From assembly GCA_944322615.1 (NCBI GenBank), contig CALUPH010000003.1, forward strand, positions 1 to 64,000: a DNA stretch of 64,000 nt, written 5' to 3'. Shown here piece by piece: positions 56,250-56,522 of the stretch. The position numbers and the translations under genes are program-made. The first letter of the stretch is position 1. Every line of letters begins with the position of its first letter. The stretch comes from Candidatus Gastranaerophilales bacterium. GTDB lineage: Bacteria > Cyanobacteriota > Vampirovibrionia > Gastranaerophilales > Gastranaerophilaceae. Below the pieces are notes generated by a model. It searched no databases, had not been told where the DNA came from, and saw only the letters and a list, made by a program, of their open reading frames with translations.

Positions 56250-56321
56250 TCCTCAGTAGCTCAATGGCAGAGCATTCGGCTGTTAACCGAAGGGTTGTAG
56301 GTTCGAGTCCCACCTGAGGAG
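56250..56321 (+). tRNA. trnN: tRNA-Asn (anticodon GTT)
   Basis: Cloverleaf with acceptor arms TCCTCAG/CTGAGGA, D stem GCTC/GAGC, anticodon stem TTCGG/CCGAA with loop CTGTTAA (anticodon GTT), and T loop TTCGAGT. One A-C mismatch lies in the T stem as I fold it. CCA is encoded at 56322-56324. Its last 16 bases recur 201 bases downstream. Confidence 0.95.
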
Positions 56322-56522
56322 CCATTAAAAAAAAAGACACCTTGTATGGTGTCTTTTTTAATGCTTTGAGGGACGAGAACCTCACAAAACGAAGTTTTGT
56401 CAAAGGTTTGAGCGAAATTTTTGCAGAAGCTGAAGTGCTTTTGTTGAAAGCGGTGAAACCGCTAAAACAAAACACGGAATGCCGTTTATCGCAAAAATTT
56501 CAAGACAGTCCCACCTGAGGAG
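56306..56522 (+). mobile_element. hairpin-rich insert bounded by a duplicated tRNA-Asn 3' end
   Basis: AGTCCCACCTGAGGAG occurs at 56306-56321 (end of the tRNA) and again at 56507-56522, an exact 16-bp direct repeat 201 bases apart. Between them lie a terminator and a palindrome-rich segment. An 11-bp outer stem, GAAATTTTTGC (56414-56424) with GCAAAAATTTC (56491-56501), encloses AGCGGT-GAA-ACCGCT and ACGG/CCGT hairpins; ACAAAAC-GAA-GTTTTGT lies just upstream. No ORF of substance is inside. Duplicated tRNA ends usually mark integration; this may be a remnant or a small structured element. Confidence 0.6.
56330..56359 (+). terminator. terminator of tRNA-Asn
   Basis: The stem GACACC/GGTGTC with flanking A/T pairs is followed by T6, a few bases after the encoded CCA. 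Confidence 0.85.

Follow-up and report, generated by a model that had tools for sequence, protein, structure and literature searches.

A family of palindromic DNA elements in Gastranaerophilales, probably mobile, that appears to insert behind tRNA genes with a replacement tRNA 3' end

The Gastranaerophilales are animal-gut and environmental bacteria and non-photosynthetic relatives of the cyanobacteria. Duplicated tRNA ends, such as the one described here for a member of this order, are the usual mark of integration by a tyrosine recombinase, the direct repeat restoring the tRNA. MITEs, in turn, are short, non-coding, multi-copy sequences that form hairpins.

Rickettsia palindromic elements (RPEs) are palindromes of about 150 bp without a gene of their own that occur as in-frame insertions in unrelated protein genes (PMC10969869). 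The REP sequences of the REP/RAYT system are interspersed imperfect palindromes of 20-40 bp with a GTAG/CGTC foot, which form single-strand hairpins (PMC3733652, PMC2817692). Integron attC arrays consist of folded single-strand sites with extrahelical bases, the units lying beside an anchor site (PMC3053210).

The window, that is the whole stretch of 64,000 nucleotides that was analysed, contains a tRNA-Asn gene with the following features.

56250-56324, forward strand: intact tRNA-Asn(GTT) (ARAGORN, Rfam).
56306-56321, forward strand: 16-bp tRNA 3' end AGTCCCACCTGAGGAG, first copy (sequence).
56307-56507, forward strand: inserted unit of 201 bp, T-loop to T-loop (present in genomes G000 and G011, absent from the same locus in G023 and G003).
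56327-56359, forward strand: terminator of the rho-independent type, GACACC-TTGTAT-GGTGTC followed by T6, supplied by the unit (sequence, MFE fold).
56370-56381, forward strand: imperfect inverted T-arm copy, GGGAC-GAG-AACC (MFE fold).
56384-56400, forward strand: hairpin ACAAAAC-GAA-GTTTTGT, flanked by the two inner halves of the T-arm (MFE fold; found again in other units).
56405-56412, forward strand: degenerate repeat of the 5' half of the T-arm, GGTTTGAG, which is GGTTCGAG in most relatives (unit comparison).
56412-56507, forward strand: core palindromic element, also found alone elsewhere (covariance-model match, covariation, boundaries from filled and empty sites).
56507-56522, forward strand: 16-bp tRNA 3' end, second copy, which is the displaced native end and is followed by the native GTTTTTT (sequence; native end seen in G023).

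The initial annotation had reported an exact 16-bp copy of the tRNA-Asn end 201 bases downstream. This is borne out by the sequence: the repeated stretch comprises the last 16 non-CCA bases of the tRNA and recurs at an offset of exactly 201, the chance expectation for an exact 16-mer copy within 300 bp being about 300/4^16 or roughly 1e-7. The repeated unit is most sensibly delimited at 56307-56507 and comprises, in this order, a tRNA 3' half with CCA, the terminator, the inverted T-arm, a hairpin, the T-arm 5' half and the core. A consensus terminator scan did not flag the terminator at 56327-56359, probably owing to the pairing of its flanking A and T tracts.

The minimum free energy of the insert is -64.5 kcal/mol compared with -41.8 +/- 4.2 kcal/mol for shuffled sequences (z -5.4), and none of the 200 shuffles folded as well. 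In the predicted structure a terminator-like hairpin (56336-56353) is followed by a three-way junction, at the base of which GGGAC (56370-56374) pairs with GTCCC (56508-56512) and AACC (56378-56381) with GGTT (56405-56408), the latter pair enclosing a GAA-loop hairpin. The nested palindromes described initially were recovered, namely an 11-bp stem of GAAATTTTTGC (56414-56424) and GCAAAAATTTC (56491-56501) which is predicted to close the core, and inner hairpins of which two have GAA loops (ACAAAAC-GAA-GTTTTGT at 56384-56400 and AGCGGT-GAA-ACCGCT). The layout of the core in the window is GCG-P1-GC-AGA-(G/A)GC-TGAA-P3-GGAAT-GCC-GTTTATC-GC-P1'-AAGACA.

The initial annotation had also seen neither a real ORF nor an integrase in the insert, and indeed the unit carries no gene at all. 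The only ORF of at least 80 aa over the insert is an antisense GTG frame running through the tRNA, which is clearly spurious. This ORF of 88 aa (56209-56475, reverse strand) contains GLEPTTLRLTAECSAIELL, the translated reverse strand of tRNA-Asn, and is likely a source of spurious protein annotations. At the gathering score, Rfam detected only tRNAs in the window and no family for the insert; at a lax threshold it added chance matches only.

An empty site was found at the same tRNA-Asn locus of relatives, as compared along the order tRNA-Thr ... tRNA-Asn ... kdsA. In G023 the tRNA-Asn is directly followed by GTTTTTT and then kdsA, and in G003 it lies near kdsA, the unit being absent from both. 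In G000 and G011 the 201-bp unit is present with a tRNA end that has CCA and its own terminator, and the native GTTTTTT follows the displaced tRNA end. Measured against the empty alleles of G023 and G003, the last 18 bases of the window's tRNA-Asn, from T-loop to CCA, are part of the inserted unit. Because CCA and a terminator are found on the end within the unit and the native GTTTTTT remains with the displaced one, the insertion is not a plain target duplication; the unit came with its own tRNA end. The inserted 3' end thus differs from the native end in relatives, which does not fit an old tandem tRNA remnant as the initial annotation had allowed for. Insertion over excision is favoured only by parsimony over these four genomes. 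Judged from the alleles, both ends of the unit lie in the T-loop; the unit provides a new 3' half of the tRNA together with a terminator, so that the tRNA remains intact and its former 3' end is shifted downstream.

A BLAST search of the region against 58 relatives returned plain tRNA-Asn matches and many copies of the downstream part beside quite different tRNAs, so that the further copies sought by the initial annotation do exist. A pattern built from the two conserved core halves had 115 or more matches in the genome collection, and those from named organisms were essentially all Gastranaerophilales MAGs. The core is an imperfect palindrome of about 70-115 bp. Its covariance model (R1), which matches the window at 56407-56508 with 90.8 bits, detected it in 47 of the 58 relatives with a maximum of 28 copies per genome. 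The window's own genome has six copies, located behind tRNA-Asn, -Ser, -His and -Leu or beside fragments resembling tRNA 3' ends. In a sample of the phylum the core was present in 113 of 292 genomes, all of the window's family or order, and none was found outside the Gastranaerophilales among these 292; the copy counts per genome in this sample are lower bounds taken from the best-scored candidates. Nearly all genomes compared are MAGs.

The element was not found in viral, phage and plasmid collections at the sensitivity used: two patterns returned nothing, no plasmid matched, and the phage matches listed span only the tRNA and its edge. A match to a third pattern (L323, 12 bits) was rejected as a chance match in a coding region, as were the Catenovulum locus L083 and the locus L150 in the genome collection. 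No published description of the element was found in the open-access literature searched, and these hairpin elements of one gut-bacterial order are apparently an undescribed family.

A same-strand tRNA lies upstream of 68 of 122 copies and in most cases ends 77-110 bases before the core. The hosts include 23 anticodon kinds besides Asn and thus at least 24, and the copies behind tRNAs are on the strand of the tRNA in every case. These units carry a replacement tRNA 3' end, a terminator and an inverted T-arm, and sometimes occur in tandem, with arrays of up to three units that differ in their terminators or cores. The spacer before the core holds an inverted T-arm of the host tRNA in 50% of 52 units, compared with 5.4% for the T-arms of other tRNAs; the centre of the inverted T-arm loop is GAGAA in 24 of the 52, and about half of the spacers match the host T-arm poorly.

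The place of the core within the tRNA unit is also taken by other sequences. A second core type, ATACAAAGCGAA...TGTATGCGAAGGCAAAGCCGTAGCTGTC, was observed behind tRNA-Asn (L012, L014, L031, L033), also in tandem, and in L009 it encloses the first core type. Further variants in the tRNA arrays L107, L138, L131 and L125 (GCGGATTTGCGGACGGACG...GGAGCAAATCCAAGA; GAGCCAAGTGCGAAG...; GCAGAGTGCG...GACACGTTTAA) have the T-arm framework in common. In L319, L135 and L067 the core follows a sequence ending in GTCGACA, in which no tRNA or Rfam RNA was recognised and which resembles a remnant of T-arm and acceptor.

The core is one of a family of imperfect palindromes found across the order, in which covarying stems surround conserved internal loops. 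Among 115 distinct copies, both partners have changed in 16 of the 17 pairs modelled, with a covariation score of 0.402 compared with 0.126 +/- 0.006 after shuffling and at most 0.09 when slid. The stems P1 and P3 are variable. The conserved parts comprise the feet GCG ... CAAG and the internal loops GC-AGA-GGC-TGNA ... NAAT-GCC-GTTTANY-GC; the search pattern itself accounts for part of this sequence conservation of the two core halves, though not for the pairing. G-T pairs make up 1.1% of the standard pairs in the element and 8.6% in the tRNAs of the same loci, and are about as frequent (15) as A-C mismatches (14). Tandem G-A/A-G in place of A-T pairs is one-sided, with 333 cells of GA.AG against four of the complement TC.CT. 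Since G-T is rare compared with the tRNAs and the tandem G-A pairs are strand-specific, we infer that the structure is kept as folded single-strand DNA of the tRNA-sense strand and not as RNA.

The core was also found without any tRNA. An exact in-frame insertion of 72 bp (24 codons) lies within a SIS-domain gene in G055 and is missing from G054 and G046, all three probably MAGs. Additional in-frame copies lie in genes for HAD-like, radical SAM and prepilin proteins, one of them antisense (L062). In G030 many copies sit within a single kind of host repeat, where they occupy either of two sites (...GAAAA[core]GGTGAG... and ...CGATAA[core]GCCGG...), each of which is empty in the copies filled at the other. 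A target-site duplication is missing from the 72-bp insertion, and this insertion and the two host-repeat sites show at most one ambiguous base. Comparison of filled with empty sites thus shows that the family inserts precisely, in frame in protein genes as well as in other repeats, and duplicates no target sequence.

The host repeat in G030 (L201-L216) is itself multi-copy and palindromic, begins with TGTCCGAACAAAATTTCAC, ends with ACTAGATTAT and carries most of the core copies of that genome. In G038 the element occurs in the leader of prepilin-like genes (L221, L222, L224, L225), where in L221 and L222 the FTLAE processing motif is present in a second copy, diverged in its codons, next to the element.

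The insert is probably a small non-autonomous mobile DNA element that is moved as a folded single strand by a trans-acting enzyme. Mobility had been one of the readings offered initially; it is supported by the dozens of related copies, by relatives in which the site is empty and by precise insertions at other places. The tRNA-sense strand would fold, and an enzyme acting in trans, from the host or another source, would cut and join it at its hairpin foot. At tRNAs the three-way junction may form from the inverted T-arm copy together with the T-arm halves, setting the exchange point at the T-loop. A mobilising enzyme was not found, and circular or single-stranded intermediates are not visible in the assemblies. 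The orientation bias towards the tRNA strand alone does not require a single-strand mechanism, and ordinary unequal recombination could produce identical units in tandem.

In its mode of action the element seems to be most like the RPEs, combined with an integron-like arrangement at tRNAs. It shares with RPEs the palindromic repeat (core about 70-115 bp), the lack of an own gene and the in-frame insertion in unrelated protein genes, but occurs in another phylum, its internal loops are conserved and its stems contain strand-specific tandem G-A pairs. The likeness is one of size and insertion behaviour, and the element is therefore kept apart from the RPEs. To our knowledge, units behind tRNAs with replacement 3' ends and tandem arrays have not been described for RPEs. 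Like MITEs the element is short, non-coding, multi-copy and hairpin-forming, but it lacks a target-site duplication and recognised transposon end repeats. As in genomic islands at tRNAs there is a direct repeat of the tRNA 3' end and an empty site in relatives; however, the unit is only 150-220 bp long, carries no integrase or other gene and has dozens of tRNA targets per family.

More tentatively, and with a greater chance of being wrong than right, these elements may represent a third mobile system of folded single strands beside integrons and IS200/IS605-RAYT, consisting of cargo-less hairpin units which would dock at the T-loop of nearly any tRNA, spare the host gene by a matched tRNA 3' end and be moved by an enzyme yet to be named.

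It seems unlikely that the units are integron-like cassettes without cargo, with the T-arm as attachment site, an attC-like folded foot and joining by a tyrosine recombinase. Tandem units of differing content running from T-loop to T-loop behind a tRNA anchor, the tRNA end as direct repeats and a site that folds as a single strand, leaves extrahelical loops unpaired and varies at its tip would all suit such a scenario. However, no integron integrase exceeded the TIGR02249 cut-off in any of the 58 genomes, cargo genes are lacking, the anchor is a tRNA T-arm, the outer stem is variable whereas that of attC is conserved, and the bare core is also inserted far from tRNAs without repeats. Furthermore, the copy-rich genomes G030 (28 copies) and G032 (11 copies) have only two tyrosine recombinases, both XerC/XerD-sized. 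The numerous, small copies without integrase likewise speak against the remnant of a tyrosine-recombinase integration proposed initially. Resemblances to attC cores and hammerheads noted by eye were dropped as the conserved positions do not fit.

Somewhat less probable still is a REP-like element mobilised by RAYT (Y1 HUH) transposases. HUH chemistry would fit single-strand hairpins and insertion without target duplication, RAYTs are present in some of these genomes, and copies are commoner in genomes with a Y1_Tnp match (median 7.5 compared with 4.0, p 0.001; p 0.007 in Fisher's test), in statistics that ignore kinship. Nevertheless, 22 genomes without such a match have at least 10 copies. 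Like REPs the copies are interspersed imperfect palindromes that presumably act as single-strand hairpins, but they measure 70-115 bp instead of 20-40 bp and have the foot A-GCG ... CAAG, neither GTAG nor CGTC. The RAYT genes are instead flanked by short GTAG-footed hairpins of their own, and model R1 detected no clear copy of the element at 20 loci (mostly Y1 genes), except for one weak match of 15 bits.

RAYT-type Y1 transposase genes were observed in part of the order (G000:C7:99745-100113, L241; L242-L252), several with inverted GTAG-footed hairpins on either side, e.g. GTAGGTTGGG...CCCAACCTAC. RAYT and Xer are the first candidates for the trans-acting enzyme. Reverse transcriptase was rejected as mobiliser, showing no association with copy number (p 0.44).

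Tandem duplication or recombination of tRNA 3' regions, the duplicated end being a by-product of unequal crossing-over between structured repeats, has a similarly small chance of explaining the locus. It would account for the near-identical tandem units in the arrays L050, L051, L053 and L055, but not for the CCA and terminator on the inserted 3' end, which the native locus in G023 and G003 lacks, the many single units, the different cores within one array or the core alone in protein genes. A structured or regulatory RNA read through from the tRNA, as considered initially, is very improbable despite the strong fold and the constant position behind tRNAs on their strand, given the missing Rfam match at gathering, what looks like a terminator ahead of the core in the majority of units, the scarcity of G-U pairs and the antisense copies within genes.

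The reading favoured here suggests that a whole bacterial order has been seeded with a palindromic element which inserts into essential genes in two ways, in frame in proteins and with regeneration of the tRNA 3' end at tRNAs. The filled and empty sites are clean, the covariation is strong and there is a signature of the strand, which makes the old question of how small palindromes such as the RPEs move directly testable.
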